This document shows, piece by piece, positions 1 to 24,241 of a stretch of 25,577 nucleotides of DNA. A program made the position numbers and the translations under genes. This DNA is from a virus. The DNA lies in the IMG/VR virus record IMGVR_UViG_3300046002_003572, positions 1-25,577 of that record. One strand, written 5' to 3'. The notes below the pieces were generated by a model. The model saw only the letters and a program-made list of their open reading frames with translations, searched no databases and was not told the origin of the DNA. Numbering within the stretch: position 1 is the stretch's first letter; each line of letters begins with the position of its first letter.

Positions 1-1017
1 ATAAAGTATATCACCGTCATTGTAACCACTTGTATTAATGCCGTTTACAATACCAAATGTGGTAACAAATCCTGTTCCATTATGTGCTATATTTTCAGTC
101 GCTATACCAACGACCTCACTTGTTGTCACACTGTCAGCATTAGCTAACGCAATAGTAGGGTTGTTGCCCTGTGCATCGTTTATATACACTACTTGACCGT
201 CATTTATTTGCACCCCTGTATTATTCCTTGCCCTTATATGCTCCTCTTGACCTATCTGTAGTGTTACATTTGCATTTAGTGGGATTGCTGGTGTAACATT
301 GGTAGCATCGAAGTATAACTGACCTACATTTGTTAGTGTGCCTGTGGGTGTTGCCGATAGTCGTACGCTGTTGGGTAGTATATTATGTGTGCCTAAATTT
401 ACATCGGTTGTTGCGCCTGTGTATGGTACGTCTCTTGCCTTAATAACCTGTAAGCTATCGTTAAGCATTGCAGTATCTACATAGTTTGGTAGTGTATCAT
501 ATAGAGTAGATATAGCACCAAATGCAACTCCTAACGCACTGTCAATTAATGGCACATCTGATTGCAGTTCTGCAATTTGGTAGTAAAAAACATCGCTTGT
601 ACTATCTATTCTTGCTATCGAACCGTATATTATTGTATTGTTGCTGTCTACGTAATCCCTTAATGAATGTAAACTATCGGATAGTCTTGTAACAGTGCTG
701 TATATGCTACTATCTACGCTACCTGCCTCAATACTAGCCGCTATGCTATCAACATACGGTACACTTGCCAATCTAAGCCTTACAGTGCCATTATGATAGA
801 ATAAGCCCCTTGTTTGCGCACTATCAACCCATATAGTCCCTAACGTATCGAATGTAGGGAATGGGTAAAAGCCTCTCGGTATGTACTGCAACCTTAATGC
901 ACCCACTGACCCACGATTATAACTCATTTGGGTGTAACTACCTGTATAAGTTGGGGTAGGTTGTGCAATCGCTTGTACTGCAAATAATGTGATTAGTATT
1001 GTTAATATGTATCTCAT
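1..1017 (-). CDS. Tail fibre / receptor-binding-like protein with signal peptide (partial, 3' end missing)
   Basis: An open frame of 339 codons runs from an ATG at 1017 off the left edge of the window, so the C-terminus is missing. Residues 1-19 form a typical Sec signal peptide (positive start, hydrophobic core, ending AIA before Gln20), a cleavage style common in Bacteroidota. Residues 85-190 are rich in D, S and small hydrophobics and look like a fibrous shaft. Around residues 197-210 is a DVPYTGATTDVNLG-type segment, and residues 260-339 resemble a module seen in many phage tail fibres (VGIATENIAHNGTGFVTTFG). The gene starts 5 bp after the stop of the preceding tail gene and ends the visible late operon, where fibres usually lie. 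A fibre role is inferred from these motifs and from position. The signal peptide is odd for a virion protein, so a surface-exported protein is the alternative. Confidence 0.7.
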   Translation of the reverse strand, partial: MRYILTILITLFAVQAIAQPTPTYTGSYTQMSYNRGSVGALRLQYIPRGFYPFPTFDTLGTIWVDSAQTRGLFYHNGTVRLRLASVPYVDSIAASIEAGSVDSSIYSTVTRLSDSLHSLRDYVDSNNTIIYGSIARIDSTSDVFYYQIAELQSDVPLIDSALGVAFGAISTLYDTLPNYVDTAMLNDSLQVIKARDVPYTGATTDVNLGTHNILPNSVRLSATPTGTLTNVGQLYFDATNVTPAIPLNANVTLQIGQEEHIRARNNTGVQINDGQVVYINDAQGNNPTIALANADSVTTSEVVGIATENIAHNGTGFVTTFGIVNGINTSGYNDGDILY

Positions 1018-1022
1018 TTTTT

Positions 1023-2966
1023 TTATGGGTTGAACGTTAGCGACCATGCTGGGGTAGCTGCCAAAAGTAAGTTCCTATTTGTTAGTGACGCTGCCGTAGG
1101 TGCGCCCGATGTGCCACCATTTATTGCAATAGTGCCACCGCCTACAGTACCGTTCCAACTATCAACCGCAAAATCATTAACAAATGTATCAACATTAGTA
1201 CTTGTAAATGCGCAATTAACTGCATATAAGAACCTCAATGATGGCTGTGGTGCTGGGAATAATAATGCAGTATCAACGCCCAATAATACTGTACAATTTA
1301 TAAATTGTATGTAATATATTAATGGGCAGTTTGTTAGGTCTATCTGCGCAATATTACTATTGTCTATTCCTAACGCCAAACAGTTTCCTACAATAATAGT
1401 GTTCACACCGTCTGGCAAATCGCCTAAAATGCTAACAATTTTGGTAACTGCTGGGTAGAAAAAACCGCTTTCATCAAATTGCAAAGTACCTATATCGTTG
1501 TTATGGAATACCGTTGCAGTTCTATACCCAACCATTGCAGTATATGTGTGCGTTTGATAGTTTGTTACTCCTGTAAAGTATTCGTATTGTTCAAATGCCG
1601 AACTATCACCCCAGTCTATAACCTGTAAACTACCGCTACCTGCAACCCCAAAACCTGCACCACCTGTTATTTGTGGTCTATATTTCAACTCCATATAAGT
1701 AGTCAACACTCTAGGTGCAACCCCAAATATACTTGGTGTTTCGCTTGGTGCTGGTACGTAATACATCACACCACTAACTCTACTTAGTGACCCACCTAAT
1801 GACGGATATAGTGCGGCAAATGCTGCTATATATGTGTCTTCATCAGTGCTATTATAGAATACCATTCTAGCAATAGGCACACTCATACTGCCTGTATTAA
1901 TTACATAATCTGCAACTGCATACGGTGTAGCTGGTGAAGGTATTACCCATAATTCTAAATCAGGTGTAGGTGTAACGGTAACAAATACATGCTGATTACT
2001 GTAACGTTCCCGAATTGGTGTACTTGCCCAACGATTAATACTTAGCTTTGGGTCGTTCGTTTCCCATAACTTACTAACTCCATCGCTGTCGCTTTTATTT
2101 AGCTGAAACGGTTTGCCGTCAATAGTCCAATAATCAGTACTTAACGCCTCATTTACTTTCTCATGTACTTGCGCTGGCACACCTTCAGTGTTAGTGCCTA
2201 ATGAAAATATCCATGTACGAAAATTAATAGCGTTTTGTTGTAGGTATAAATATTGCTGTTGTAGATAGCCTGTATATACTCCATTAGGGTCATAATCCCA
2301 AATACAACCTTCTACTCTATGTTGAAATGTGGGTACATTGCCATCACTCCAACCACCTGCTACTACACCCTGACTACTACGATTAGTTAAATCACGCCCT
2401 TCAATTAAAACAGTGCCTAAAAACTTATCGTAAAGAAATATAGCATCTGATTTGTAATCTCTGTAAATACTTGTATCGGGGCTGTAAACTCTTGCATTAA
2501 GGTAGTATATTCCGTTACCTATTGTAAGGCTTGTAATTGGGTCTTCTATCTGATTAAATTTGAATTGCCAACGGTGTGAACGCATAGCATAATCGTTACT
2601 TGCTAATGTTACTGGGTCAACATAGGTCATTGTACCTGCTGGCACGTTACCAAAGTATAAAAAACCACCACCCCCGCCAATAGTCTGTATAAATCTACCT
2701 GTACTATCTGTTATCCATAATGAAGGTTCAACAACTGGCGATAAGTCTTCAGTATTAATTATAACCGTACACGTATCGGTGTAAGTCCTTTTAAAGTAGT
2801 ATTCTTTAGGGGTCATAAACCACATACTACTTTCATTGATAGGCTTTTGGTCAAATTGAATAAAGCCCCCTTGATTGGTATAAAAGCCGTTAGTAGGGTC
2901 GTTAACTTCCGTAAATCGGAAATCTGCAACCTTCGGGAAATCGGCTATAACTGCATAACTTGGCAT
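1023..2966 (-). CDS. Distal tail / baseplate-like protein with C-terminal PKD-like and leucine-rich segments
   Basis: This 647-residue protein is encoded after the tape measure and a first distal-tail gene, which suggests a baseplate or adsorption role. The N-terminal two thirds are not recognised but are beta-rich, with many aromatic residues. Residues about 446-490 resemble a PKD domain: a VIDWGDSS strand-turn followed by a THTY strand and a GYRTATV strand. Residues about 508-600 look like irregular leucine-rich repeats (NIAQIDLTNCPLIYYIQF and following). The tail end (GGTIAINGGTSGAPTA onward) resembles the cap seen after such repeats in Bacteroidota phage proteins. The ATG at 2966 has an exact TAAATTTG box only 4 nt upstream on its strand, so a leaderless transcript is possible. 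Domain calls are by eye; binding of a surface ligand is inference. Confidence 0.65.
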   Translation of the reverse strand: MPSYAVIADFPKVADFRFTEVNDPTNGFYTNQGGFIQFDQKPINESSMWFMTPKEYYFKRTYTDTCTVIINTEDLSPVVEPSLWITDSTGRFIQTIGGGGGFLYFGNVPAGTMTYVDPVTLASNDYAMRSHRWQFKFNQIEDPITSLTIGNGIYYLNARVYSPDTSIYRDYKSDAIFLYDKFLGTVLIEGRDLTNRSSQGVVAGGWSDGNVPTFQHRVEGCIWDYDPNGVYTGYLQQQYLYLQQNAINFRTWIFSLGTNTEGVPAQVHEKVNEALSTDYWTIDGKPFQLNKSDSDGVSKLWETNDPKLSINRWASTPIRERYSNQHVFVTVTPTPDLELWVIPSPATPYAVADYVINTGSMSVPIARMVFYNSTDEDTYIAAFAALYPSLGGSLSRVSGVMYYVPAPSETPSIFGVAPRVLTTYMELKYRPQITGGAGFGVAGSGSLQVIDWGDSSAFEQYEYFTGVTNYQTHTYTAMVGYRTATVFHNNDIGTLQFDESGFFYPAVTKIVSILGDLPDGVNTIIVGNCLALGIDNSNIAQIDLTNCPLIYYIQFINCTVLLGVDTALLFPAPQPSLRFLYAVNCAFTSTNVDTFVNDFAVDSWNGTVGGGTIAINGGTSGAPTAASLTNRNLLLAATPAWSLTFNP

Positions 2967-2989
2967 ATTGCAAATTTAGTGTACTTTTG
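2960..2989 (+). promoter_or_regulatory. Bacteroidota-type promoter of the lipoprotein gene
   Basis: TTG at 2960-2962, a 19-nt spacer, then TACTTTTG at 2982-2989. This matches the -33 TTG / -7 TAnnTTTG consensus exactly. The ATG of the plus-strand lipoprotein gene begins only 4 nt after the box, so the mRNA would be leaderless or nearly so. Confidence 0.7.
2971..2978 (-). promoter_or_regulatory. Possible -7 box of the minus-strand tail gene
   Basis: On the minus strand 2978-2971 reads TAAATTTG, an exact TAnnTTTG, 4 nt before the ATG at 2966. No clear TTG lies 17-23 nt upstream, so only the -7 element is supported. It overlaps the spacer of the divergent lipoprotein promoter. Confidence 0.35.
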
Positions 2990-2993
2990 TGAA

Positions 2994-3236
2994 ATGAAAC
3001 ACATAATCATAATACTATCTTCGGCTTTATTGTTGACATCTTGTAGTAAAGTTCCTAAATGCTGGGAATGTACTAGAACAATAACAAGACAAAATAATAC
3101 AAGCGCACCAAAGGTAACTACAACAACACATCAACTTTGCGATAACACACGAAAGGAAATGGAATACTACGAAAAGGTAAATACTACTTACGTAGCTACT
3201 GCAAATACCGTATCTGTAGTTACCGAATGTCATTAG
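2994..3236 (+). CDS. Small secreted lipoprotein inserted among tail genes (moron-like)
   Basis: This 80-residue protein begins with a lipoprotein signal peptide: K2, H3, an Ile/Leu-rich core, and the lipobox LTSC with the lipidated Cys17. The mature part is short and polar, with a CxxC pair (C23, C26) and further cysteines at 49 and 79, so it is probably disulfide-bonded outside the cytoplasmic membrane. The frame stays open upstream to 2847, but that would run through the start of the oppositely oriented tail gene. The ATG at 2994 sits just after an exact promoter and starts a canonical signal peptide, so I chose it. It is the only plus-strand gene in about 20 kb of late genes. Its stop overlaps the stop of the convergent gene at 3233 (TTAG). 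A lysogeny or superinfection-exclusion role is a guess; the family is not recognised. Confidence 0.75.
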   Translation: MKHIIIILSSALLLTSCSKVPKCWECTRTITRQNNTSAPKVTTTTHQLCDNTRKEMEYYEKVNTTYVATANTVSVVTECH

Positions 3237-5770
3237 TTTTTCTTTAGTGCTGCATCGGTTGTACTTGGGTGTGCTAACAGTTTAAACACTGTGGCTTTGT
3301 TATTTGCTGCCGATTGTTTAACCTCTAGTAAAAACCCTTTGTACTCTGTATCTGTAAAGTCTTCGCCTCTCCATTTAAAGCTAACATATCCGTATGGATT
3401 AGCGTTTATTATGCTAAACATATTTACTGGATATTCGCTTGTAACTTGGAAAATATAAGGTCTAAACAACTTACTGGTAATGGTAAGCGGTATATCCTCA
3501 ACTTCGTTTATTACTGTACCATAGTTTAAATACTTTGACATACCTGCACGCTCTAAAGCTGGTGTAGTTGGGTCATTATATTGCTGTTGGTATATCTTTC
3601 TAAATGACATAACACTACCGAAATCATCTTGACCGTCACACAATGACCTTATCATTTTACTATTTCTGTAAATGTTACTAGCTGGGTCTAAGCCTAAATT
3701 ATATGCAGTATCGGGGTAATACATGCCTTTAATGTAAGGTGAAGTGGCTGGGTTAGTACTTTGCGCTGTTGGGTACTGGTCTAATCCGTATGCACTTACG
3801 CCCACTAATACGCCTGCTGGGTTAGTAATATCGGGAAATGCTACTACATCTTCTGTAATTTGTATTAATACACTACCATTACTAGCTGATGGGCTACTAT
3901 TTTCACTATTGTTTTGCGCTCTAGCTTTCTCAATATAGTAAATGTCTGCATTAACTTCATTTACTTGGTAGTCTAGTGATTTTGGTGTTTTGTTTAGTGG
4001 TAATTCCCATTTCATAGGCATACAAAAACTATCAACTGCAAAGTTTTTATTTGTCTGTAATGGCTCATACCCTGCATTTAGCACATTACCCATTGCCTCT
4101 GTAAATGGCATTATCTCAAAGTCTGCAACATTGCTACCCAAATTAAGTATCAATGTGCTATCATCAAAAAAATAATCAAAAGGCTCAATTTTTATCTTAT
4201 CATCGCCTATTATACCTAACCCCAAACCACATATTTTGCTCCATTGTTGGTAAAATGCTGCTAATGATTTTGTCATGTATGGAAAGCCAATTATACCCCT
4301 TACTGCATTCTCACTTGTTTCAATAGTGCGATATGGTATAAGGTCTATGTTTGTTGCTAATGATAGTGTTTGGTCTGCTAAATACACACTTTCACCAATA
4401 TATCCGCTACCTGTCTGTACTGGAAATCCGTAAGCATCAGTAGTAGTACTATCTAAGCAATCTACTATTTCCTGTAGTAGTCTATGTGGTCTAAATCCTA
4501 TTATAGTACTTTCGGGAAATATAGGTGCGTCAACTGGTGTAGATGTGCCACTATTGTAGTTGCTATAAACTGTAGCTTCAAGTTTAGAAAATCCATTAAA
4601 GGTTACAACCGAAGATGTTGATAATCCAATAGTTACACCGTCATAAATTACACCTATTATGGCACATTTTTTAAATGGTAAAGTTATAGGTACTGTAACA
4701 TCAAAAGTAGGTGTAGGTGGCGTATATGGTGCTAATGTCTGCGGTAAAAGTTGCGTATATAGCGTAGTATATTGATAGTTGCCAGGGCTACCTATTATTA
4801 TTGGAAAGTCATCTTCGTCTATTTCAAACAATACTATTCTTACATATTGGTCTTGAAATATTGCATTACTATATACAAATGCACCATCAAACTCACCTAC
4901 AACACGTACAAGTAAATCAACAGTACCTGCCGCATTATCAATTAAATTCTTTACTAAACATTGGTTTCTGCTATACGCCTGTATGTCAGCAGAGCCGTTA
5001 AAATCTCTATTGTAATTCGCTGGTTGGTTATTTGCTGGCAATACTACTTCAAGTATATCGTTTCCTATAAAAGTAGTAGTACCGTTATTTTGTGCAACAT
5101 TAAATTTATTCATTGCTGGTATCCAGTGCCTACTATCAGTTCTTGAGCCTCTATTCCAACCAGCTAAATCACCAGCAGCAGGTGGGACTAGTAAATTCGT
5201 TGCCGTTGCAGCACTTACATATTGTGTCTGCCACCTTAATTTAATCCCTGTATGCTGTAGGAATACCGCACTTGCGTTAACTAACCATGAACCACCACTA
5301 TATACCCAAAAAGGTATATTAAACTCGCTTTGTGCTTTAGATTTTAGCAGTTCATAAAGTTCACTATCTAAAGTAGCAACTACCATTAATTGAGTGCGCT
5401 TACTATCCTTAGCCCCCGACAAATCAATTTGCGAAGTGTAAAAAGTTTCAAATAGTAATGTACTTTCATTGTATATGTCTATGGTCATTCGGCAATAACC
5501 GTTAACACCTTTATCAGCAAGTATAGATAATAATATAGCCCTTGCATCTTCGCTAAATTGGAACTTTTGCGTCTGTGAACGAAACACACCATAATAGGTC
5601 ATGTTACGTTCCCACGTTATATCCGTTTCATCCCAACCTTTAGGCAAATATTTTATATATGCAGCACTAACGCCATTTGTTACAGTCCATGTGTTATCAG
5701 TTGCCTGTACTGCACTATAATAGTTGCCGTTTGCCGCCCTTAATGATATTCTAAATCTATCGTTATACAT
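3233..5770 (-). CDS. Large distal-tail / tail-tip protein
   Basis: This 845-residue protein is encoded directly after the tape measure gene (2 bp gap), the usual place for the distal tail or tail-associated protein of siphophages. The start (MYNDRFRISLRAANGNYY) suggests a beta-sheet domain. The rest is rich in beta-prone, aromatic and Asn/Thr residues, without any catalytic motif I can name. Residues around 640-655 are low complexity (NNSENSSPSASNGS), probably a linker. No signal peptide or membrane segment is visible. The assignment rests on position and size; it could combine the distal-tail ring and tail-tip roles that other phages split between two proteins. The 3' end overlaps the convergent lipoprotein gene by 4 bp. 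Confidence 0.6.
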   Translation of the reverse strand: MYNDRFRISLRAANGNYYSAVQATDNTWTVTNGVSAAYIKYLPKGWDETDITWERNMTYYGVFRSQTQKFQFSEDARAILLSILADKGVNGYCRMTIDIYNESTLLFETFYTSQIDLSGAKDSKRTQLMVVATLDSELYELLKSKAQSEFNIPFWVYSGGSWLVNASAVFLQHTGIKLRWQTQYVSAATATNLLVPPAAGDLAGWNRGSRTDSRHWIPAMNKFNVAQNNGTTTFIGNDILEVVLPANNQPANYNRDFNGSADIQAYSRNQCLVKNLIDNAAGTVDLLVRVVGEFDGAFVYSNAIFQDQYVRIVLFEIDEDDFPIIIGSPGNYQYTTLYTQLLPQTLAPYTPPTPTFDVTVPITLPFKKCAIIGVIYDGVTIGLSTSSVVTFNGFSKLEATVYSNYNSGTSTPVDAPIFPESTIIGFRPHRLLQEIVDCLDSTTTDAYGFPVQTGSGYIGESVYLADQTLSLATNIDLIPYRTIETSENAVRGIIGFPYMTKSLAAFYQQWSKICGLGLGIIGDDKIKIEPFDYFFDDSTLILNLGSNVADFEIMPFTEAMGNVLNAGYEPLQTNKNFAVDSFCMPMKWELPLNKTPKSLDYQVNEVNADIYYIEKARAQNNSENSSPSASNGSVLIQITEDVVAFPDITNPAGVLVGVSAYGLDQYPTAQSTNPATSPYIKGMYYPDTAYNLGLDPASNIYRNSKMIRSLCDGQDDFGSVMSFRKIYQQQYNDPTTPALERAGMSKYLNYGTVINEVEDIPLTITSKLFRPYIFQVTSEYPVNMFSIINANPYGYVSFKWRGEDFTDTEYKGFLLEVKQSAANNKATVFKLLAHPSTTDAALKKN

Positions 5771-5772
5771 GC

Positions 5773-8700
5773 TTATAGTCCTTGTAGGTTTCTCATTTTA
5801 CGCAATTCATCTGCTACACTTTCGGTCTGATGTTGTTTCGGTTGGCTGTTGACTATTACGGTTGCTAATTTGCGCCCTGTCTTGTCAAATTCCCTACTTA
5901 CTATACTTCCTATCGTTTCTGCAATTATCGCACTGTTACGGGCATCGTATGCGGCTGAAATGTTACCTACGTTGCTAGTAGTGTTAGCCATTGCATACTG
6001 CATAGCTGATTTTGGTATTACTTTAGTTCCTTCCGCCTCATCATAGAGAGTAGAAATACTATTTGACCAATAAGGTGTTTTGTTAGGTGCTATAATCAAC
6101 TCCTTTTCGCCACCATCACCAGCTATGAACTTGCCGCCTTTGTGATATGTTGTACCTTCTTTGTACGCTGGGATAGGTGTGTTAGCTGCTGCCGCTAATT
6201 GTACCGCACCTGCTGCTGCTATTAGCGCCATTATAACTGGTGCGCCTGGTCCATATTGCAATGCACCTGCCATAGCTATAGCTGTATTTTGGATTATAGC
6301 CGCTATTGCTGCCGTTTTCTGTGCTGCCGCTTGCCTACGTGCTACCTCACGTTTTCTATCCTCAATAGTTGATTGTTGCGCCTCTGTTTGTGCTAATAGT
6401 TTCTGCTGTTGATTGTATCTTTCCGTTTCATCTTTTACCGTTGCATCTATTAGGCGTGATTGCTCGGTATAGTTAGCTTCTATCTTACGGGCTTGTTCAT
6501 CTAACCTTGCATTTTCCGCCTCATACTGTCTATTTTTCGCCTCTATTATTGCGTCTGCCGCTTGATTTGCAAGTGCTACCGTTCTGTTGTAGAACTCTTC
6601 CAAGTATTGCTCTTGCTCGGGCATGTCTTCGGGAATAAATAACTTGGCAATCCTATCTGTAGGTCTGCCTTTTCTGTTTTTTATTTCAGGGGCTTTTTCG
6701 CCCTTTGCCATTGCCGCTATTACATTTTTTAATTTCTCTTCATACTTTGCTCTATTTTCAGGGGTTAAAGACTCATTAGCTAATACCTTTTCAATAAATT
6801 CTTTTTCCGCCTGTAAAAATGCTATATGTTGTTTTTTCTGTAGTTCTGTAAGTCTTTTGTTGTATTCACGCCTTGTTATCTCTTTTTTATCTAGTGAACC
6901 TTTAAGTAATTCAATCTCATTTAAGTATAAAAATTCTTCATTAGTAGATAACTTAACAAACAAGTCTTTTTGTGCATCTATAAACTTTTCGTTTGCACTC
7001 TCTATGATTGCAAGCCTACCTTCCGCTTGTTTCTTTTCAATATCTATAAATTCACCTGCGGTTTTTTCTGCCGCCATTGTGATACGTAGATTAGACGCTA
7101 TTAGTTGGTCATTAAGGTTCTCAATCTCTTGACCCTTAGCCGTCTTTAGTTTCTCACGTATCTCCGCTTGTTTCGCTTGTTCTTGCTTTACAATATAATC
7201 ACGTTCCAATACTGCCGCCTGAAATAACTCGGACTGATATTCCATGTAGGCATCTAGTCGCTGATTAAGTGTGTTTTTCTCATTGTCTGCAATCTCTTTA
7301 AGCATTGCTGCATTTTGCTCGGTGCGCTGTTTATTTAGTTCATATTCGGTACGTAGTAAATCGCTTTCTGATTTTGCTGTAGTGTCTTTTACTTTTTTTT
7401 CTTTCCCTTTTTTATCTGTTTCAACCTGAGTATTCATATATTTTACGGCATATTTGTACTGTATTTCTTTTAGTTTTGAAATCTGCCGTTCTATATGCAT
7501 TTCTTGGTCTCTATAGTCAAGATATTTATTTACCTGTTCTTCATCAACCCCTTGCGCTGGGTCAACTACATTTATATGCGTTAATCTGTCTCCTTGCGCT
7601 TTTATGGCTCTTTGTACTGCACTTTTTGATTGTTCAGACATTTCTTTTTCCATGTCTGCCATTAACTTCTTAGTATCTTCTTTTGTTCCTGTAGCAGTTG
7701 TAATTGTTTTGCTTATTTCATCAAGGTGAACTTTAGCTTTAATTACATCATTTATTATTTTTATTTGATTTTGATGTGCTTTACTAAGTTTCCCACTTGC
7801 CTTTTCTTCTTCTGACATAGCAGTTAATACATTCGGAAACATAGAACTTAATTCCCTGTATGCAGCTATTTTGCCATGAATATTTGTATTAGTATCATTG
7901 TAAACATCTACCAATAATTTAGCTTTTTGCGTTTCATTTTCTATACCAGTAGATATATTTACTCCTAAGTCTTGAATATTTTTATTTAAAGACTTTAGGC
8001 TTTCTTCAAATCTTTTAACGGAATTACCAGCTTCATCAACTGATGACTTAAATATATCAGTCTTAGCAGCAAGGAAAGTTATAGCAGTTGTAGCAATGGT
8101 AATAAGTCCCACTGGCGAAGTAATGGAACTCATTAACGTTTTCCATATCGGGATAGCAGTACCACCACTTGCCTTTAGTGCGTCATTTGCTGTTTTTAGT
8201 TTAGCTATTTCATCTACCAATATTGGTATGTTATTAGACATTGCTAAAAAACCTGTAGCGGCACTATATGTAAATGCTGGCATCTCACGTAGTATCTGCG
8301 ACATTGCAACTGCGGCTGTATTATATTGCCCTACTTGCCTTTGTGCCTGACCTACTGACTTTTCAACCGCTAATAGGCTGTTATATAGCTTCATTGCGCT
8401 ACCTGCTGCTGCTGTAGCCCTTGCATCTGTTACCCCAAATTCAGCACCTAATTTCTTAGCCTCATCTGCCGCTTTCTTATATTGTACTTTTAATTGTTCG
8501 TATGCGTTGTTTAGTTTTGCAAGTGCCTTTTCTTCACGTTCTGCATTTTTACGTACTGTTTCAGCATCTAAATCCGCTTGTTTAGCCGCCTTTTCACGTT
8601 CTGCAATTACCTTTTGTATGCCTAATAACTCATTACGTTCTGCTATTTCAATAGCCCTTTGTTTTTTATCAACTGCCGCCTCATATTTCTTTGTAGCCTC

Positions 8701-8907
8701 TGTAATGGTTTGTATATTTTCGGCTTGCTTTGCCATCGCTGCATTTAACTCGCCAATATTCCCAGCCCCCTTAAAATCAATAACAATACCCTTTGCGGCT
8801 GTTGCTACATTGTTAACATTTTTAACCGCTAACTCTAGTTGGGCATTAGCTAACTCTAGTTGGTCTAACGCCCCTTGACTAATTATCTCACTTACTAAAT
8901 CTGCCAT
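5773..8907 (-). CDS. Tape measure protein
   Basis: At 1044 residues this is the longest protein in the window. It has the expected tape measure composition: long Ala/Glu/Lys/Gln-rich helical stretches (about 55-155, 480-740 and 775-870) with coiled-coil character, and hydrophobic segments near 262-286 and 865-908. The C-terminal part (GTTYHKGGKFIAGDGGEKE onward) resembles the end of tape measure proteins of Bacteroidota phages and prophages. Such proteins set tail length and are released during DNA entry, when the hydrophobic segments may insert into the host membrane. It lies between the small tail-assembly-like genes and the distal-tail genes, and its start overlaps the preceding gene's stop by 1 bp. 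No lysozyme or peptidase motif was seen. Confidence 0.9.
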   Translation of the reverse strand: MADLVSEIISQGALDQLELANAQLELAVKNVNNVATAAKGIVIDFKGAGNIGELNAAMAKQAENIQTITEATKKYEAAVDKKQRAIEIAERNELLGIQKVIAEREKAAKQADLDAETVRKNAEREEKALAKLNNAYEQLKVQYKKAADEAKKLGAEFGVTDARATAAAGSAMKLYNSLLAVEKSVGQAQRQVGQYNTAAVAMSQILREMPAFTYSAATGFLAMSNNIPILVDEIAKLKTANDALKASGGTAIPIWKTLMSSITSPVGLITIATTAITFLAAKTDIFKSSVDEAGNSVKRFEESLKSLNKNIQDLGVNISTGIENETQKAKLLVDVYNDTNTNIHGKIAAYRELSSMFPNVLTAMSEEEKASGKLSKAHQNQIKIINDVIKAKVHLDEISKTITTATGTKEDTKKLMADMEKEMSEQSKSAVQRAIKAQGDRLTHINVVDPAQGVDEEQVNKYLDYRDQEMHIERQISKLKEIQYKYAVKYMNTQVETDKKGKEKKVKDTTAKSESDLLRTEYELNKQRTEQNAAMLKEIADNEKNTLNQRLDAYMEYQSELFQAAVLERDYIVKQEQAKQAEIREKLKTAKGQEIENLNDQLIASNLRITMAAEKTAGEFIDIEKKQAEGRLAIIESANEKFIDAQKDLFVKLSTNEEFLYLNEIELLKGSLDKKEITRREYNKRLTELQKKQHIAFLQAEKEFIEKVLANESLTPENRAKYEEKLKNVIAAMAKGEKAPEIKNRKGRPTDRIAKLFIPEDMPEQEQYLEEFYNRTVALANQAADAIIEAKNRQYEAENARLDEQARKIEANYTEQSRLIDATVKDETERYNQQQKLLAQTEAQQSTIEDRKREVARRQAAAQKTAAIAAIIQNTAIAMAGALQYGPGAPVIMALIAAAGAVQLAAAANTPIPAYKEGTTYHKGGKFIAGDGGEKELIIAPNKTPYWSNSISTLYDEAEGTKVIPKSAMQYAMANTTSNVGNISAAYDARNSAIIAETIGSIVSREFDKTGRKLATVIVNSQPKQHQTESVADELRKMRNLQGL

Positions 8908-11808: not shown

Positions 11809-12675
11809 TTATTGATTTTCATTGTACTGTATTCGTAATATATCACCGTCTTGAAATCCGAATGTAAATGTACCTGTACTTGCATCATAAGGCAATGATT
11901 GTGGTGTCCAGTTATACAGTTGGTCGGGAAACACATCTCTACCTACCAAATGTGGCACTGTTACACTACTACCTGTAGGATATTCAACCTGTATTTTTAT
12001 ACCGTTCCAAAGGGTTTGTGTAAGTGCTGTATTTGGCACTGTCTTAAACACACACGTTATAGGGGCTGTCATAGCGTAAAAATATTGAGGTCTTGGTATA
12101 CTATTAGCGCAATCATAAAGGTTAATGGCAAATGAATTAGTCATGTCTACCCTAAAACAACATTTTGGCTGGTGGTTATTGTCAACTATAGATTGTCTTT
12201 TTTTACTCCCACTATACTTGCTTAGCACATTATCAATGTCACGTACAATAGAAGTTACTTTAAAGCCATTCCATGCAGGTACTAACAATTTAGCTATGTC
12301 TTGAACTACACGCTCATCCATTCGCTGATTACCGTTAGTAGGTCTTACCCTATTTAGATTAACCATAACATACATACTCATATTGTAAGTATATCTGTCA
12401 CCGTCTATAACCATTGGGTCATTCAAACCAAACCAAATAACAGCCGCCTTTTTGTCATCAAAGAACATATCAATGGCATAATCCCTACCTAAATTGTACC
12501 ACTGCGGTATAAAACCATCTTTATCACTATTCCTGTAACATCTGCCATACACCTCAAAGTTGTCAGCCGTCATGCCACTTTCGCCCCACATAACATAAAG
12601 ACTTTCATAAAGCGTAATCATAAGATTGCTTAATGGGTAGTCTATTCCGTTAGGTTGTGGTACTAAGTTTATCAT
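11809..12675 (-). CDS. Neck / tail-completion-like structural protein
   Basis: This 288-residue protein is encoded between the Big_2-containing connector-like gene (4-bp ATGA overlap) and the tail tube gene. It is beta-rich with many aromatic residues (YESLYVMWGESG, RYTYNMSMYVMVNLNRV), has no signal peptide and ends in an acidic, beta-prone tail (TFGFQDGDILRIQYNENQ). The position between capsid and tail tube suggests a head-tail connector, stopper or tail terminator. No family is recognised with certainty. Confidence 0.55.
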   Translation of the reverse strand: MINLVPQPNGIDYPLSNLMITLYESLYVMWGESGMTADNFEVYGRCYRNSDKDGFIPQWYNLGRDYAIDMFFDDKKAAVIWFGLNDPMVIDGDRYTYNMSMYVMVNLNRVRPTNGNQRMDERVVQDIAKLLVPAWNGFKVTSIVRDIDNVLSKYSGSKKRQSIVDNNHQPKCCFRVDMTNSFAINLYDCANSIPRPQYFYAMTAPITCVFKTVPNTALTQTLWNGIKIQVEYPTGSSVTVPHLVGRDVFPDQLYNWTPQSLPYDASTGTFTFGFQDGDILRIQYNENQ

Positions 12676-14075
12676 GTTGTCCAGTTTCTTGGTGGTAATG
12701 CACGAATGTCAAAGCCTTGATAGTAATTAGCCCATACATCAACTATTCTATTGCCTGTAATCGGTACTGATGTCGCTACTGCTTTTGGTGTAAAAGCCTC
12801 TGTTAGCATTTTCATTTCTTTTGCTAATCTACCTTTAAGCCCTGTTGAATATGGGTGTTCTTTAGTAGGGAAAGCTAAGTCAATGTCTAACTTTAAACCG
12901 TCTAAGTTTACATTTAGCTGCCTTGTTTCACCGTTCGCCCTTGTGCTATTCAGTATCGCTTCACATTGATTAACCGCCATCATTAACCCTCTAGCCTCAT
13001 CAAACATTTGGGCATTCTGTATAGCTACTTGGGTGTAATCCCTGTAACATGAATACTCTATGTTTATGCCGTAACTTCTAAAGTTTACAGATAGGTTAGT
13101 ACGGTTGTATGTAAACGTTCCATCTTGTGCCGCTTGGAATGGGAATGCACCCATAACCTTACCCCTAGTCCATACGTTCAACTGCTCATCTATAGCTTGG
13201 CAATTAGGGTTACTTGCTGCCACTTCATTTTGATTGTAAGCTAAGTACCACACCCCACCAATATTACCGCTTGTATTGCCACCGTTATCGCTACTATCAA
13301 CATAATTCATCAACCAATCTAACTGTATTCTGGTCTGATTGTTTGCCACTGTTGTTACTTGCATAGTATATACAGGCGATAACAGTACATCGTTAAATAG
13401 ATAAATATTGAATGTTGCAACATCGGTAAAGTAAAGCGATATGCTATTCAATACAGCCGCATAGTCACCGCTACCAATCGTAAGCCTATACCCACACCAC
13501 ATATTCTGATTAGGAATGTTAAATGGGGTTATATTGCCGTACCTTGTATAGTTGGGCTTATGCTCAATGAACGTTGGCTTATTAAACACACCTTGCAAAA
13601 CCCTTATCGTACATGCGTCATCCTCTTCGATTAGGAACTCATTAAACTGTGCATCTGTTATTGTTTCAGCCTCTTGTACGTGGTACAAATTGCTAACAGT
13701 TACCGCCTTATGAAATCCCCTATCATAGTATCTGCCTGATACCGACTTAAGATTAGTTGCAGTCAATTCGGGTATTCCATTGTAAGGCTCATGCCATCCG
13801 ATACGCTCCCTAAATGCTGGGAAAATCCTATCTAAGTTAAAGCCATTAGTCAACCTTACGGGGTTAACTGATAGACTTAAAGTAGATGTTTCCACACCTA
13901 AAGTATAAGTGATAGTCACGCTACCAATAGTCACACCAGCAACTATACCGCTATTGGTTACAGTTGCTACTGATGTATTTGAACTACTCCAAGTACCACC
14001 AGTTTCATTAATTGTAAGTGTGGTTTTAAATCCCACACTTACAATATTTGAGCCTACTATTGGATTTAATGGCAT
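12672..14075 (-). CDS. Structural protein with N-terminal Big_2 Ig-like domain (neck/connector region)
   Basis: This protein has 467 residues. Residues about 8-72 match a bacterial Ig-like group 2 (Big_2) domain: a TLTINETGGTWSSSNTSVAT strand pair, then VTNSGIVAGVTIGSVTITYT and a final SLSV strand. The remaining 390 residues are unrecognised, with a beta-rich middle and a helical C-terminus (LKGRLAKEMKMLTEAFTPKAV). Big_2 domains in phages are usually appended to the C-terminus of tail tubes, capsids or decoration proteins and bind carbohydrates weakly. Here the domain is N-terminal and on a protein encoded two genes after the capsid. The start at 14075 is 9 bp after the preceding stop. A connector or decoration role is inferred from position. 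Confidence 0.6.
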   Translation of the reverse strand: MPLNPIVGSNIVSVGFKTTLTINETGGTWSSSNTSVATVTNSGIVAGVTIGSVTITYTLGVETSTLSLSVNPVRLTNGFNLDRIFPAFRERIGWHEPYNGIPELTATNLKSVSGRYYDRGFHKAVTVSNLYHVQEAETITDAQFNEFLIEEDDACTIRVLQGVFNKPTFIEHKPNYTRYGNITPFNIPNQNMWCGYRLTIGSGDYAAVLNSISLYFTDVATFNIYLFNDVLLSPVYTMQVTTVANNQTRIQLDWLMNYVDSSDNGGNTSGNIGGVWYLAYNQNEVAASNPNCQAIDEQLNVWTRGKVMGAFPFQAAQDGTFTYNRTNLSVNFRSYGINIEYSCYRDYTQVAIQNAQMFDEARGLMMAVNQCEAILNSTRANGETRQLNVNLDGLKLDIDLAFPTKEHPYSTGLKGRLAKEMKMLTEAFTPKAVATSVPITGNRIVDVWANYYQGFDIRALPPRNWTT

Positions 14076-14084
14076 ACCGTTTCT

Positions 14085-14600
14085 TTATGGCTTTTGCGTA
14101 AGTATTTTAGCTGTATAAGTAGCCGTAGCTGTACCTGTTTGGATTGTACGAATAAAATAGTTATCGAACAATGAACCAACGTTATTAGGTAGCTGCCAAA
14201 CATACTTTAACGATGCGCCCGGCACTGTTGTACTCGATGCACCTACGCACCCTGCACAATAGGTAGTATTACCTGTTATTGCCTTTGCGCCACCGCTTAC
14301 CGCCAATGCTGCCGCCTGTGCCGCTGTCAATGGTATGCCGTTGTTGTTGTATCCGTAAAGTATATTTGACGTTGTTGCTACCGTACCTGTTAAAGTAGTA
14401 GTCAACATTTCAAATGACTTTTCGAACCCTGTACCAACCCATATAAACGCTACGCCCGTATCGCCATTAGTTAGGGTATCTCTAGTTTTTAGAGTACCGC
14501 TTGGCGTTGTCAACTTCATAGTAGTTGAGGTGTAACCTGTTTGCGCTTCTGTGCTAAATGCTATCAATGCAGCAAATAGAAACATGATTATTCTTTTCAT
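14085..14600 (-). CDS. Small exported protein next to the capsid gene (Sec signal peptide)
   Basis: This 171-residue protein begins MKRIIMFLFAALIAFSTEAQ, a clear Sec signal peptide with probable cleavage before Gln20. The mature part is Thr/Gly/Ala-rich and beta-prone, with a C-A-G-C pair at about residues 115-118 (TYCAGCVGAS). It lies 33 bp after the major capsid gene, where a decoration or head-completion protein would be expected, yet such proteins are normally cytoplasmic. Either this is a non-virion protein carried in the late operon, or a structural protein that keeps an export signal. No homologous family is recognised. Confidence 0.65.
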   Translation of the reverse strand: MKRIIMFLFAALIAFSTEAQTGYTSTTMKLTTPSGTLKTRDTLTNGDTGVAFIWVGTGFEKSFEMLTTTLTGTVATTSNILYGYNNNGIPLTAAQAAALAVSGGAKAITGNTTYCAGCVGASSTTVPGASLKYVWQLPNNVGSLFDNYFIRTIQTGTATATYTAKILTQKP

Positions 14601-14633
14601 TTCTGTTTATGTTTTATTTGTTACGTTATAAGA

Positions 14634-15698
14634 TTAAGCTATTGCAGCGTTTTGACCTATCAATATAATAGGACTGTCATCAGTTGTTGAACTTGGGTCT
14701 GTTACATAACCTATAGTAACAGTCATTTCCATTTGTAGGATAAAATCCTGTGGCGAACCACCTGTAGTATCTGCTACTGTAGATGCACGCTGGAAATAAG
14801 TAGATACATCGGCTGTGATACCTAATCCAAATGGGTCTGTTTGTGTACCCAAAGTACCGATAGAACCACCCATGTCATCATTCAACCCTTGACGGTTTAA
14901 TTGCTCATTCCATGTGAACGCACCGAACGCACCACGTGGCATAAACAAGGTAGAACCTTTGCCGTATGCTGTACTGATTTGTTTTTGCGTCTTGTAGAAG
15001 TTGCAATCAGAAAACTGCCATTGAGTATTTGAAAAGTTACCTGAACCCTGATTCATGTAGTTTTCAAACGTTACAGATGATTGTAGGTCTGTTATTACAT
15101 CATATCCATCTGCATAGCTAAGGAACATAGACTCCATTGCAGACTTAGACTTAGCGATAAACAAGTTAGTATCATCGCTAGATATTGCGATACCCTTGTT
15201 AGTGTCATCCCATGTCAAACCAGCAGCAGCAAGACGGGCATCCATTGTAGTTGCGTCTAGTTGATTACGGAAAGCTACAGCACGTGCAAGTGCGATATCT
15301 TCGTGACGGTCTATAATGTTTTTCCACTTTTGCTCATACAAGTTAGCAAACAATGTAGCATTGCTTAATAGGTTGTTTGCACCTAGTTTCAATGGCATAC
15401 CTATTGTTTCCACTATCTGATAGTAGGTAACGTTTACCTTACCAGTATCACCGTATGTACCTGTGTGGTTGTAGGCTTTAACTGTTGCAGTTCCGTTAGG
15501 TACTGATTTAAAATACACTACATCAACTTGGCGTAGTGGAGATGTTCTCAATTCTGATACTGTAGGTATAGAATATTCTGAGTTATTTAAGCCCATTCTT
15601 AGGACTTTAGGCATTTGCCTACGTTGCTCAAATAGGTTGCGTCTAGCTGCTATTTGTGCTTGTGCGGTATAGAGTACCGATGCTGCGTAATCTGACAT
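14634..15698 (-). CDS. Major capsid protein (probable HK97 fold)
   Basis: This 354-residue protein follows the scaffold-like gene and fits a major capsid protein in size, composition and place. The N-terminal arm is helical and charged (LYTAQAQIAARRNLFEQRRQ). It is followed by strands (VDVVYFKSVPNGTATVKAY), a long helix (ANLYEQKWKNIIDRHEDIALA) and a central domain with MESMFLSYADGYDVITDLQ. No N-terminal prohead-protease-type delta domain is obvious, consistent with a separate scaffold. It has its own upstream gap with a terminator and a probable promoter, which would allow higher expression than the terminase/portal genes. The HK97 fold is assumed from general knowledge of tailed phages. Confidence 0.8.
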   Translation of the reverse strand: MSDYAASVLYTAQAQIAARRNLFEQRRQMPKVLRMGLNNSEYSIPTVSELRTSPLRQVDVVYFKSVPNGTATVKAYNHTGTYGDTGKVNVTYYQIVETIGMPLKLGANNLLSNATLFANLYEQKWKNIIDRHEDIALARAVAFRNQLDATTMDARLAAAGLTWDDTNKGIAISSDDTNLFIAKSKSAMESMFLSYADGYDVITDLQSSVTFENYMNQGSGNFSNTQWQFSDCNFYKTQKQISTAYGKGSTLFMPRGAFGAFTWNEQLNRQGLNDDMGGSIGTLGTQTDPFGLGITADVSTYFQRASTVADTTGGSPQDFILQMEMTVTIGYVTDPSSTTDDSPIILIGQNAAIA

Positions 15699-15754
15699 TG
15701 TTAGTAGATTTTAAACGTTAGTAAATAAAAGATGTTTGAATTTCTTTAGCGTAC

Positions 15755-15820
15755 TTAATTGTCAAATCCCTTGCAATTAACAGCCTTATCAGTTCTTATG
15801 AGTTCCCACTCATTTGCCAT
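15755..15820 (-). CDS. Possible 21-residue leader ORF upstream of the capsid gene
   Basis: Within the capsid gene's leader, an ATG at 15820 opens a 21-codon frame (MANEWELIRTDKAVNCKGFDN, 21 residues, TAA stop at 15755-15757). It starts about 17 nt after a probable promoter -7 box and ends 56 nt before the capsid ATG. It could be a leader peptide or chance. No comparison was possible. Confidence 0.25.
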   Translation of the reverse strand: MANEWELIRTDKAVNCKGFDN

Positions 15821-15836
15821 ACCCTGTATAACTTTG

Positions 15837-15869
15837 TAAAAATACGCAACATTATATCATATTGCCAAA
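15837..15869 (-). promoter_or_regulatory. Probable promoter of the capsid gene
   Basis: On the minus strand TTTG (15869-15866), a 21-nt spacer, then TATTTTTA (15844-15837), one mismatch from TAnnTTTG. It lies just downstream of the terminator and about 140 nt before the capsid ATG, a logical place for a strong late promoter. Confidence 0.45.
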
Positions 15870-15909
15870 TTTATTTTCCAAATTGTGGAATAATTCTATA
15901 AAATGGAAT

Positions 15910-15939
15910 AAAAAAAGCCACTACAGTTAAGTAGTGGCT
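15910..15939 (-). terminator. Intrinsic terminator after the scaffold-like gene
   Basis: A perfect 8-bp stem (AGCCACTA / TAGTGGCT, 15932-15939 and 15916-15923) with an 8-nt loop. On the minus strand it is followed by a run of seven T residues (15916-15910). This is a canonical intrinsic terminator separating the terminase-portal-scaffold transcript from the capsid transcript. Confidence 0.8.
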
Positions 15940-16004
15940 GGTGCAATTAGCACATTTTACCTTTCTTTTTACCTTTTGCCATGTCGCATATTTAAATTGT
16001 GAAC

Positions 16005-16811
16005 TTAACTACCAAAATCAAATGAAGGGTCTGCCTTTGCCGTTTCAGATACAAACGCTTGGAACTCTGTACCCATTACGTTCTTATCAGGGTGCATTTC
16101 CTTAAACTTTGTTTTAGCTTCACTTAAACTTTTAATACTTTTATCTGTTTTGCCTTGAGTGATACCTCTGCCTGCTGGTGGATTGGTTACTGACGGTGCA
16201 AACCCTAGCTGCGCTACCACTTCAAATATCCCTTTATCGTTGGTTAGTGGTGCATGGGTTACTTTGTCTTTAATTGTTTGACCGTCTTTCTCCCATACTA
16301 TCTCACCGCTTTCCAATTCTTTAGGCGAATACCCTCTTATCTTAGCTATTTCTAATACCTCTTTTTGTGTTAATCCATTTTCAGGCTTAGGGATAGATGT
16401 AACTATCTTTGTTTCAAATTCAAATGCTTTGCGGTTATTGCGCTCCGTTTCTGCATCTGTTTTGAACTTGCTTACATCTTGGCTAAGTAACGTGTTTTGC
16501 TCCATTAATGACTTTATCTTGTCATCATTGGTAGCGTTAATCTGTGACTTTATTTCGTTGGCAACATCGCCCCATCTTTCGGCTGTAAATGGCAATCCAA
16601 CCTTTGCCAATTCCTTCTTTGCGATTTCAAACGCTTTACCTTCGCCCTCTTTGGTCTTTGACGCATATAGTTCTGTTATTTGTGTGTCGGTTAAAAATTG
16701 ACCTTCAGGCAAGGTTACTGTTACTTCGTTGGCATCTGCATGTGCTGCTACTAATGCAGCTAAATCAATACCTATACTTTTTAATTGTTCTATTTGTTTC
16801 TGTGGTATCAT
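16005..16811 (-). CDS. Capsid scaffolding-like protein
   Basis: This 268-residue protein is encoded between the portal region and the capsid gene. It is acidic to neutral, Lys/Glu-rich and largely helical, with a coiled-coil stretch at about 88-130 (KSQINATNDDKIKSLMEQNT and following). It has a Gly/Thr/Lys linker near 213-225 and a small C-terminal helical segment ending DPSFDFGS. These traits and the gene order portal - scaffold - capsid match minor structural GP20-type scaffolds of siphophages. No protease motif is visible, so it is more likely a pure scaffold than a protease-scaffold. Diagnostic residues for the family cannot be checked by eye. Confidence 0.65.
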   Translation of the reverse strand: MIPQKQIEQLKSIGIDLAALVAAHADANEVTVTLPEGQFLTDTQITELYASKTKEGEGKAFEIAKKELAKVGLPFTAERWGDVANEIKSQINATNDDKIKSLMEQNTLLSQDVSKFKTDAETERNNRKAFEFETKIVTSIPKPENGLTQKEVLEIAKIRGYSPKELESGEIVWEKDGQTIKDKVTHAPLTNDKGIFEVVAQLGFAPSVTNPPAGRGITQGKTDKSIKSLSEAKTKFKEMHPDKNVMGTEFQAFVSETAKADPSFDFGS

Positions 16812-16817
16812 GTTGTG

Positions 16818-17291
16818 TTATTTTATTTCTTTGTTTTGTGATAGCAAAAAGTACTCAACTGGTATTTGATTAGTACCTGCTGGTAAATTGGCATTAAGTA
16901 ATAATGCAGTGCTTAATTTCATCTTCATACCTTTTCTTACCGCCTTACCGTCTTTCATTACAAATCCCGATACTATTTTAGTGGGTGTAGGATTGGTAGG
17001 GTCTATTGCCTGATACAGTGGAGATACCATGTACAAATCAAAGTAATAATCTTTGTTTACATTTAGTAACCCATTACCTACTCTCAACGATACACCATTA
17101 GCAACATGCTGCTTTACATCGCCTTGTAGTATTTCGTTATACTCCATAAAATCCTCACCTGTAAGATTTGAATAATCAAACTTAGTGTGTGGTTGTCCTT
17201 CTATCTCATCGGGCTTAGTGTACATAGCCGATAGATTAATTTTTGTTAGCTTTGGTTGTTCGTCTGTGAACGTTTTAGATTTTCTGCTCAT
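16818..17291 (-). CDS. Unknown protein between portal and scaffold
   Basis: This 157-residue protein begins with a Lys-rich polar N-terminus (MSRKSKTFTDEQPKLTK), then a mixed alpha/beta body (GVSLRVGNGLLNVNKDYYFD) and ends with NQIPVEYFLLSQNKEIK. It has no signal peptide or membrane segment. Gaps of 5-6 bp on both sides place it firmly in the portal-scaffold operon. A head-morphogenesis role is suggested only by position. Confidence 0.6.
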   Translation of the reverse strand: MSRKSKTFTDEQPKLTKINLSAMYTKPDEIEGQPHTKFDYSNLTGEDFMEYNEILQGDVKQHVANGVSLRVGNGLLNVNKDYYFDLYMVSPLYQAIDPTNPTPTKIVSGFVMKDGKAVRKGMKMKLSTALLLNANLPAGTNQIPVEYFLLSQNKEIK

Positions 17292-17296
17292 ATTGT

Positions 17297-18994
17297 TTAT
17301 GTATTTTGTGTTTGTAAAAGTACGATATTATTTACATATTCCGTTAATAGGTTTCCGAGTTCTGCCTCACTTGATGAATACCATTGCTCATAGCTTATAG
17401 TCTTAGCCCATTCAACATAGTATCTTGCACGTTTTTTGTCTAAGTCACTAACATAAATACTTGCTTCAACCTCTTTAATTCCCATGTGTGGGAACGGCTC
17501 AACATTGTATTTCTTTAACTCAACTGCCTGTTTTTGTGGGCTACCTTTGTATAGTGACTTAATGTATTTTACCATCATTTCATTAAGTGTAGATACTGGG
17601 TCACCGTTCTTTTTCATAGCGTGGTACACTTCAAGTATCTGCTCAGGTGTATTTAATATATAATCCCTACCATACGTAATATATACACTTGGTTCGCTTT
17701 CATCAAATCTATACTCGGCATCTTTATTAGCTATCCACGTTTCAATACCTTCCGCCCAATCTGCAAGATTATTTAACACCATCTGCTTAGGCAATGTATC
17801 CATAAGCGTCTTAGTAGCTGTTTCTGTGGTACTTTGTGTGCCGTTGTATCCTTGCACCGTTGCATTACTCATTGTGCCGTAATGGGTAATATACATCAGT
17901 TGTTCCAATGCTGATAGGTCGCTATTCTGTTGCTGCCATGATGCTATATCAGGGGTAACATATCCAAACAACTTTCTAAAGTCAAACCCACCAGCCTCAT
18001 TAAGTATCTCAATCGGGAAACGAGATACATCGGATATTCTTGTACGTGTTTTATATCCGCTACCTTTATCATGACCTGCCTGTGAACAATCGGGACATGG
18101 CATACCTTGTAACAACCCCTCACCTTCACACGTTGAACATCTTAATAGTGGCTCAACTGCTTTAGCAAATCCATGATATAACTTTTGTAAATCACGTATT
18201 GACCTATCACGTAGGAAACAATCGCCCAATTCCGATAACACCTGTATTCTACTTTCATACCTACCTGTGTCATAGTATTGCACCATGTCAGATATTATGA
18301 TAGCTGGCACGTCATCCCACATATTAGGCAACTCGGCACTATACCCCTCATTCATTGGAGCAAGTATAGCTACATCATTTTGCACATATACAATCCTATC
18401 ATACTCCTCATCTACAAACCTGTAATACTTACAACCTTCATTGCCTTTATTATTAATGCCATATTGCTTTATTTCGCTTGCTGGAATATAGAAACAAACA
18501 TATTCTAACTCCCTACCTTCTGATATGTAGTCATGTATAGATGTAACACGTTTGTATGTTGGGTATGGCTCACCGTCATTGTGTTCCATAAATATCAATC
18601 CCATCGGGTCAGTATCAAATGCTGGCTTTGCATATGTTTCAACCCATTTTCTCAATCCTATACCATCGCCATAATTAGACATGGCATCAATTATAACCTT
18701 CTCTTTACGCTTACTATTAGTATATGATATACTGCCACCTTTAGTAGTAAATACTTGACCTTCCTCTCTTAATAGTCGCTTGAATAGGTCTTTAGTTGAT
18801 ACCGCATATCTGCGTCTAGTAGCTGCTATATCGTCATTCTCAAACGGTTCTAGCGTCTTTAATGCAGCCCCCATACCTTCACCAGTAACGTGCATCATTA
18901 ACTGCCTGTTGACCTCTTTAGCCCAATCAAGGTTAGCCTTATTACGTGGTCTAACTATAATGCTACCTATTTCTTTTAAATCGTAACTACTCAT
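17297..18994 (-). CDS. Portal protein with zinc-ribbon-like insertion
   Basis: This 565-residue protein follows the terminase large subunit. Size, position and the long helical C-terminal half (about 350-560, with DLSALEQLMYITHYGTMSNA near 359-378) suit a portal, the dodecameric ring through which DNA enters and leaves the head. At residues 286-303 there is a CxxC pair, CSTCEGEG followed 10 residues after the first pair by CPDC, and a His at 308. The first half copies the CxxCxGxG pattern of DnaJ zinc fingers, so this is probably a zinc-binding loop in the portal's external region. The ATG at 18994 is only 5 nt from an exact TATATTTG box. No classical portal signature was used, so the call rests on order and architecture. 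Confidence 0.75.
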   Translation of the reverse strand: MSSYDLKEIGSIIVRPRNKANLDWAKEVNRQLMMHVTGEGMGAALKTLEPFENDDIAATRRRYAVSTKDLFKRLLREEGQVFTTKGGSISYTNSKRKEKVIIDAMSNYGDGIGLRKWVETYAKPAFDTDPMGLIFMEHNDGEPYPTYKRVTSIHDYISEGRELEYVCFYIPASEIKQYGINNKGNEGCKYYRFVDEEYDRIVYVQNDVAILAPMNEGYSAELPNMWDDVPAIIISDMVQYYDTGRYESRIQVLSELGDCFLRDRSIRDLQKLYHGFAKAVEPLLRCSTCEGEGLLQGMPCPDCSQAGHDKGSGYKTRTRISDVSRFPIEILNEAGGFDFRKLFGYVTPDIASWQQQNSDLSALEQLMYITHYGTMSNATVQGYNGTQSTTETATKTLMDTLPKQMVLNNLADWAEGIETWIANKDAEYRFDESEPSVYITYGRDYILNTPEQILEVYHAMKKNGDPVSTLNEMMVKYIKSLYKGSPQKQAVELKKYNVEPFPHMGIKEVEASIYVSDLDKKRARYYVEWAKTISYEQWYSSSEAELGNLLTEYVNNIVLLQTQNT

Positions 18995-18999
18995 GAGTG

Positions 19000-19028
19000 C
19001 AAATATAATATTTATTAACTAATCCAAA
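19000..19028 (-). promoter_or_regulatory. Promoter inside the end of the terminase gene, driving portal
   Basis: On the minus strand TTTG (19028-19025), a 17-nt spacer, then TATATTTG (19007-19000), an exact TAnnTTTG. The portal ATG begins 5 nt later, predicting a leaderless transcript. The -33 element lies inside the 3' end of the terminase gene. Confidence 0.55.
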
Positions 19029-23876: not shown

Positions 23877-24188
23877 ATGCCTAGAACAATCATAAGTAAA
23901 GTAAAAGTACTTGAAATTTACCCCGATGCGGAGTGCAAAGAAAGCACTCGTTTTGAAGGTCATTTTTATATAAAAATACCCAATTTTATAATACCATATT
24001 TGCAAACCAGCGAACCCAAAGCATGGGCAAACGCATGGCAGATAATCCGAGCCGAACAACGCAAATCAGAAGGTAACGCACCTAAAGAGATTACCACTAT
24101 CAGAATAAAACCCACCATAAAAGCCGCTATAATCAGCAAACATGGTAGCGTTCAAAAGTGGGTAGATACAATGACCACCACAATATAG
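23877..24188 (+). CDS. Early protein, unknown (last gene of the early block)
   Basis: A 103-residue protein (MPRTIISKVKVLEIYPDAEC...). The N-terminal half is beta-prone with hydrophobic strands (FYIKIPNFIIPYL). Then comes a helix (KAWANAWQIIRAEQRKSEG) and a C-terminal stretch (ITTIRIKPTIKAAIISKHGS) with basic residues. No family recognised. It ends 4 nt before the strong terminator, so it closes the early transcript. Confidence 0.6.
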   Translation: MPRTIISKVKVLEIYPDAECKESTRFEGHFYIKIPNFIIPYLQTSEPKAWANAWQIIRAEQRKSEGNAPKEITTIRIKPTIKAAIISKHGSVQKWVDTMTTTI

Positions 24189-24192
24189 CTTT

Positions 24193-24227: not shown

Positions 24228-24241
24228 ATTGTAGGTAGGTG

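Follow-up and report, generated by a model that had tools for sequence, protein, structure and literature searches.

A Lipoprotein Gene on the Opposite Strand to the Tail Genes

The stretch of viral DNA analysed here, referred to as the window (25,577 nt; IMG/VR record IMGVR_UViG_3300046002_003572, positions 1 to 25,577), carries structural genes on its minus strand, running from TerL and portal through tail proteins and the tape measure to an 845-aa gene and then a 647-aa gene, and among them lies a lone plus-strand unit encoding a small lipoprotein. The features of the region are as follows, where the names hub and adaptor derive from synteny and weak PHROG matches:

1023-2966, minus strand: next tail gene, 647 aa, candidate receptor-binding or adaptor protein
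2960-2989, plus strand: Bacteroidota-type promoter-like motif TTG-N19-TACTTTTG, exact, 4 nt before the ATG
2967-2993: 27-nt gap separating the 647-aa and lipoprotein genes at their divergent starts, over-conserved
2994-3236, plus strand: lipoprotein gene, ATG at 2994 to TAG at 3236, 80 aa
3027-3233, minus strand: 68-aa ORF antisense to the lipoprotein gene and coupled to the 845-aa gene through TAATG, considered spurious
3233-3236: 4-nt convergent stop overlap (TTAG/CTAA) of the lipoprotein gene and the 845-aa tail gene
3233-5770, minus strand: tail hub/tip-like structural gene, 845 aa (phrog_15220), with homologs in prophages and viral contigs
5773-8907, minus strand: tape-measure-like protein, 1044 aa (phrog_14476, phrog_1107)

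An earlier note on this DNA had described an 80-residue lipoprotein (lipobox LTSC, Cys17) encoded between two opposite-strand tail genes and ending in a stop that overlaps the convergent one. These points were borne out: the gene is flanked by 3233-5770 (-) and 1023-2966 (-), TTAG at 3233-3236 is common to both stops, and its orientation opposite to the tail genes supports the further claim of an independent plus-strand unit. The product, MKHIIIILSSALLLTSCSKVPKCWECTRT...VVTECH, starts with a clean signal and matches Pfam LPAM_1 at 20.1 bits, just above the cut-off of 20, while its mature domain holds four conserved cysteines (C23, C26, C49 and C79). A structure prediction (pLDDT 53) was too poor for use, and profile searches of the PDB gave no significant match. 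Surface-exposed lipoproteins of Bacteroidota bear an acidic export signal at positions +2 to +6 after the lipid-bearing cysteine (PMC5080379). Because the mature N-terminus here, CSKVPKC, lacks any acidic signal at these positions, the 80-aa lipoprotein is predicted to face the periplasm, like Llp of phage T5, and the same feature speaks against the earlier suggestion of a host-surface factor, if that term is taken literally.

The 647-aa protein on one side has no Pfam or PHROG match. Its residues from about 1 to 330 correspond to a product of ~310 aa that is encoded directly after the hub in relatives, with phmmer E values of 1.5e-12 to a 339-aa protein of L173 and 6.8e-8 to a 311-aa protein of L158, and its C-terminal half is extra. 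For the 845-aa protein on the other side the predicted structure (pLDDT 29) was too poor for fold searches. Within its gene we observed a sharply bounded hypervariable segment at about 4503-5222 (-), where DNA identity among three phages falls to 58-82% as compared with 82-98% on either side, and which is a candidate receptor- or glycan-binding insertion.

The Lipoprotein Frame Is under Purifying Selection

Close homologs of the 80-aa protein are encoded in two related viral contigs, L002 (90% identity) and L003 (66% identity), at the same genomic spot, so that close phage copies of the gene number three with that of the window. The frame and lipobox, whose lack of conservation in related phages had been proposed as grounds for dismissing the note's reading, are present in both contigs. 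Relative to L002 the frame shows a dN of 0.07 and a dS of 1.04 (dN/dS about 0.07), with 29 of the 42 changes at third positions; judged by this codon pattern, the ORF at 2994-3236 (+) is a real gene with purifying selection on its frame. The comparison with L003 has a different distribution, residues 1-31 and 73-80 being identical and residues 32-72 matching at only 11 of 41 positions, so this core, lying between identical flanks, was apparently swapped or is fast-evolving.

The 68-aa minus-strand ORF opposite the lipoprotein gene was considered as a true gene and rejected on codon positions, on its dN/dS of about 0.8 (dN 0.22, dS 0.27 between the window and L002) and on the loss of its stop in L002. 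What makes it attractive is a TAATG in which the stop codon of the 845-aa gene and the start codon of the ORF overlap; the composition of the ORF, rich in Cys and Ser, is antisense-like.

The claim of an exact promoter upstream of the lipoprotein gene fared less evenly. The motif is indeed exact, and three genomes agree at all of its fixed bases, but its frequency is near chance, with two matches in the window against 0.96 expected and 25 of 100 shuffles reaching two, and taken alone it is weak. Its placement directly upstream of the lipoprotein gene has a shuffle p of about 0.01-0.02. At the usual distance from the motif, transcription would begin on the ATG or right next to it, and since only 4 nt separate motif and ATG, an mRNA begun near 2994 would have almost no leader or none at all. 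The 27-nt gap differs from that of L002 at 2 of 27 sites, as against 36% of third positions changed in the lipoprotein gene (binomial P 0.0008); this constraint is not proof of a promoter, because the leader of the 647-aa gene lies in the gap as well. A consensus scan of positions 2700-3600 found no terminator-like site or hairpin 3' of the lipoprotein gene. A promoter common to lipoproteins at this site in other phages was also considered and set aside, the motifs upstream in L117, L157 and L173 being no more frequent than in shuffles.

The Site behind the Hub Gene Is Filled by Lipoproteins or Empty

Among the bacterial genomes searched, G178 has a homolog in the same slot of a distant prophage (E 1.5e-19, 37% identity). 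This gene converges, with a 4-nt stop overlap, on a hub homolog whose 742-aa product is 24% identical to the 845-aa protein with motifs in common along its length; tape-measure-like, head, terminase-like and early genes follow, and the contig also has an integrase match at a distance of about 8 kb. In G103 and L171, which are identical over 9.5 kb, the hub homolog (36% identity in G103) is met by the convergent gene of a 143-aa lipoprotein unrelated in sequence, and in L173 by that of a 155-aa lipoprotein, which resembles the 143-aa protein in the signal peptide only; the stops overlap by 4 nt in each of these cases. G686 encodes a 208-aa lipoprotein directly 3' of the hub in the codirectional orientation. 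Independently occupied slots are few, comprising the window type, G178, the G103 type, L173 and possibly G686. The 4-nt stop overlap recurs in L002, L003, L117, L157 and L173, and at the junctions of the last three it is kept with differing sequences (TTAG, CTAA, TTAA) and unrelated lipoproteins.

The slot is empty in L158, L160, L164, L172 and Pan5, where the hub overlaps or abuts the next tail gene. The product of that gene measures about 310 aa (595 aa in L172) and, where a match is seen, is related to the first half of the 647-aa protein of the window. A strict lipoprotein scan of 20 loci, covering 373 ORFs in 340 kb of sequence from phages, prophages and their flanks, returned four matches, all of them in the slot; the scan is conservative, because the 143-aa lipoprotein was missed through its short signal peptide. 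A lipoprotein encoded between tape measure and hub in L169 (G704) matches the family weakly (E 1.3e-6) and was not counted as the same slot. From this comparison of loci we read the site as a moron-type insertion, flanked by the hub gene and the tail gene that follows it, and reserved for lipoproteins. The term moron, used in the earlier note, holds as far as insertion between genes that adjoin in relatives is concerned; the gene falls short of a full textbook moron, because no terminator of its own was found. A literature search on lipoprotein morons in Bacteroidota, covering open-licence papers, returned nothing relevant.

Comparison with the related phage G003 places the lipoprotein gene in a wider pattern of exchange. 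The portal and other head genes of G003 are 27-31% identical to those of the window, while its tail genes are mostly 77-98% identical, with the tape-measure gene at 59%, and by this pattern the lipoprotein gene travels with the tail module. The change from head genes at 27-31% to tail genes mostly at 77-98% identity forms a sharp mosaic boundary within window positions 12672-20484 (L058 in G003), and therefore head and tail modules appear to recombine in this phage group. The window groups with G002 against G003 (n=3) in two segments, the lipoprotein core and the 647-aa gene's C-terminal part. We make no claim of co-variation between core and tail segment, as the same three are grouped differently by the N-terminal part of the 647-aa gene.

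The Lipoprotein Belongs to a Mostly Chromosomal Family

A pattern search of bacterial genomes identified a 44%-identical relative, L021, in a Sphingobacteriales MAG (E 5.9e-15). Profile searches then placed members in 16 of 296 genomes of the same bacterial family (E 1e-4), with up to seven copies per genome, and, in a sample of 395 genomes from the whole phylum, in few; a tblastn search of annotated phages gave no relatives. Five cysteines are invariant in 13 members (the lipid-bearing Cys17 together with C23, C26, C49 and C79), and W24, T52 and E60 are near-invariant. The 80-aa protein has all of these, and it shares with its Bacteroidota homologs (L021, L037-L041, L051-L055) the lipobox, C-W-x-C, the C-D-x-T-x-x-E region and the C-terminal cysteine. 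The family is covered by no Pfam family and differs from the window's gene in being mostly chromosomal and adjoining ordinary cellular genes: among eight neighbourhoods read, seven had no recognisable phage genes nearby, as judged by the translated neighbours, and the eighth is a prophage. On sequence grounds the 80-aa protein is accordingly a member of a mostly chromosomal Bacteroidota lipoprotein family. One chromosomal relative (G001, L062 6797-9631) lies near an FRG-domain gene that matches the PADLOC candidate defence models PDC-S15.

Likeness to Known Exclusion Systems

The arrangement resembles the oad/llp locus of phage T5 (AY543070). Llp is likewise a small lipoprotein (77 aa, against 80 aa here), and llp is encoded on the strand opposite to the receptor-binding gene oad, with an annotated promoter of its own, as the gene described here lies opposite to the 647-aa gene; the two divergent starts are 79 nt apart in T5 and 27 nt apart in the window. 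The loci differ in that oad is the receptor-binding gene of T5, whereas the 647-aa neighbour is only a candidate for this function, and in that one intramolecular disulphide has been reported for Llp (PMC9586334), in comparison with four mature cysteines in the 80-aa protein. Homology between the two was not detected, hhalign aligning only the signal-peptide end (probability 19%) and BLASTP giving no match. Llp binds FhuA from the periplasm and alters its outer loops so that binding of the receptor-binding protein is prevented (PMC9586334), and Rtp45, which has a disulphide, works from the periplasmic side as well, its target being LptD (PMC12685063). Cognate exclusion proteins have been suggested to be part of the receptor-binding loci that lie directly downstream of gpJ in small coliphages (PMC8594841). 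Lipoproteins of the Rtp45 type, at the gpJ-receptor-binding loci of Drexlerviridae, likewise adjoin tail-tip or receptor-binding genes (PMC12685063, PMC8594841), although they belong to phages of another host phylum and are likened here by description rather than sequence, and the lipoprotein gene of the window is convergent with the hub. The gene in the window is itself encoded beside tail-tip or receptor-binding genes, as far as hub and adaptor are assigned by synteny and PHROG matches. The Cor family of T1 and phi80 (phrog_1119) also consists of small phage lipoproteins, linked in the literature to FhuA-dependent exclusion. Identity with Cor was rejected, as the weak phrog_1119 match (E 1.3e-4) covers residues 1-43 and is gone when the signal peptide is removed. 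The likeness of the 80-aa protein to Llp and Cor would accordingly be one of function and architecture rather than of demonstrated family membership.

Discussion

Starting from the observed gene, its lipobox and family, the slot, the convergence, the empty slots and the replacement by unrelated lipoproteins, we favour on architectural grounds, at about an even chance, a periplasmic receptor-jamming lipoprotein that resembles Llp in function and mediates superinfection exclusion. This preference follows from the match in organisation to the T5 and coliphage loci together with the predicted periplasmic facing. Also in its favour are the dN/dS of about 0.07 at one conserved locus, the movement of the gene with the tail module, the confinement of the scanned lipoproteins to the slot, and the core exchanged between the window and L003. 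As to promoter use and timing, the gene would have a promoter of its own and would not depend on the minus-strand late operon for its transcription; as to localisation and receptor, its disulphide-stabilised mature domain would bind the phage's outer-membrane receptor, perhaps a TonB-dependent transporter; and exclusion would result as the receptor-bound lipoprotein keeps new virions out, just as Llp of T5 does by jamming FhuA. The reading is weakened by the mostly chromosomal distribution of the family, whose ancestral role may be unrelated to exclusion. The small number of close phage copies (three), the lack of homology to Llp or Cor outside the signal peptide, the near-chance frequency of the promoter motif and the missing terminator also count against it.

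The chromosomal distribution is what a host-derived lipoprotein moron would predict, in which the protein confers some other benefit, in envelope or stress functions or in excluding other phages or predators, without acting on the phage's own receptor, and the gene merely occupies a tolerated site. The family is mainly chromosomal and multi-copy, as the survey of 296 genomes at E 1e-4 indicates, and tail-gene neighbourhoods are common moron sites. Against this stand the repeated filling of the slot almost only by lipoproteins, unlike a neutral insertion point, and the movement of the gene with the tail module, and we consider this explanation rather unlikely. The gene might instead be cargo, selfish or neutral, that recent transfer has maintained and that brings the phage no benefit. 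This would agree with the few copies known and with the mosaic core between the window and L003, but it fits poorly with a dN/dS of 0.07 and with a slot, orientation and overlap kept across distant lineages, and appears improbable.

Two further readings have very little in their favour by our estimate. The protein might be a lysis lipoprotein, that is, an Rz1-like o-spanin serving as the outer-membrane partner of an inner-membrane spanin: it is a small lipoprotein, its homolog L021 weakly matches Pfam LysC (E 0.13) and two phage copies match Rz-like spanin PHROGs (E 0.03-0.05). These E values are far above significance, however, and the PHROG matches cover the signal-peptide end; moreover, the homologs are chromosomal, a proline-rich linker is missing, and an M15 peptidase with neighbouring small membrane-type candidate lysis genes is found elsewhere in G003, all of which makes a spanin highly unlikely. 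It is equally far-fetched that an antisense transcript damping the late tail operon is the main role, with the protein secondary, even though the gene lies on the opposite strand, no terminator was found and the convergent overlap is kept in several lineages, since the protein sequence is strongly constrained and the slot is elsewhere filled by unrelated lipoproteins, so that the common feature is a lipoprotein product. Antisense effects on late transcription as such are possible.

Extending the receptor-jamming reading beyond the window, we put forward, tentatively and with more doubt than belief, that Bacteroidota siphophages maintain a dedicated exclusion slot, in which a convergent, stop-overlapping lipoprotein cassette behind the hub would carry unrelated receptor-jamming lipoproteins, one of them recruited from a host lipoprotein family, that are swapped to match the receptor, and that would represent an independent invention of the Llp/Cor strategy. 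If this is true, receptor-blocking exclusion lipoproteins are a general strategy of tailed phages, reinvented in Bacteroidota; new exclusion genes, and by way of them the receptors of these phages, would be predictable from position alone; and the Cys-rich host lipoprotein family would gain its first testable role.

Other Features of the Window

Neither the window nor its two close relatives, records that may be fragments, yielded a tyrosine integrase. The tape-measure gene contains a segment at 7383-8102 (-) with 20-70% DNA identity among three phages, unlike the gene ends. Between convergent early genes, a hairpin-like C-rich/G-rich stretch at 24188-24242 resembles, by eye, a bidirectional terminator. 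Sec-type signal peptides start several structural-operon proteins, among them a 171-aa protein (14085-14600, minus strand; MKRIIMFLFAALIAFSTEAQ) and a tail-fibre-like protein that is open at the window end (1-1014, minus strand; MRYILTILITLFAVQAIAQ), and such signal peptides are also seen in the structural operons of distant prophages (L117 9636-10118; L158, L159, L160 and L162).
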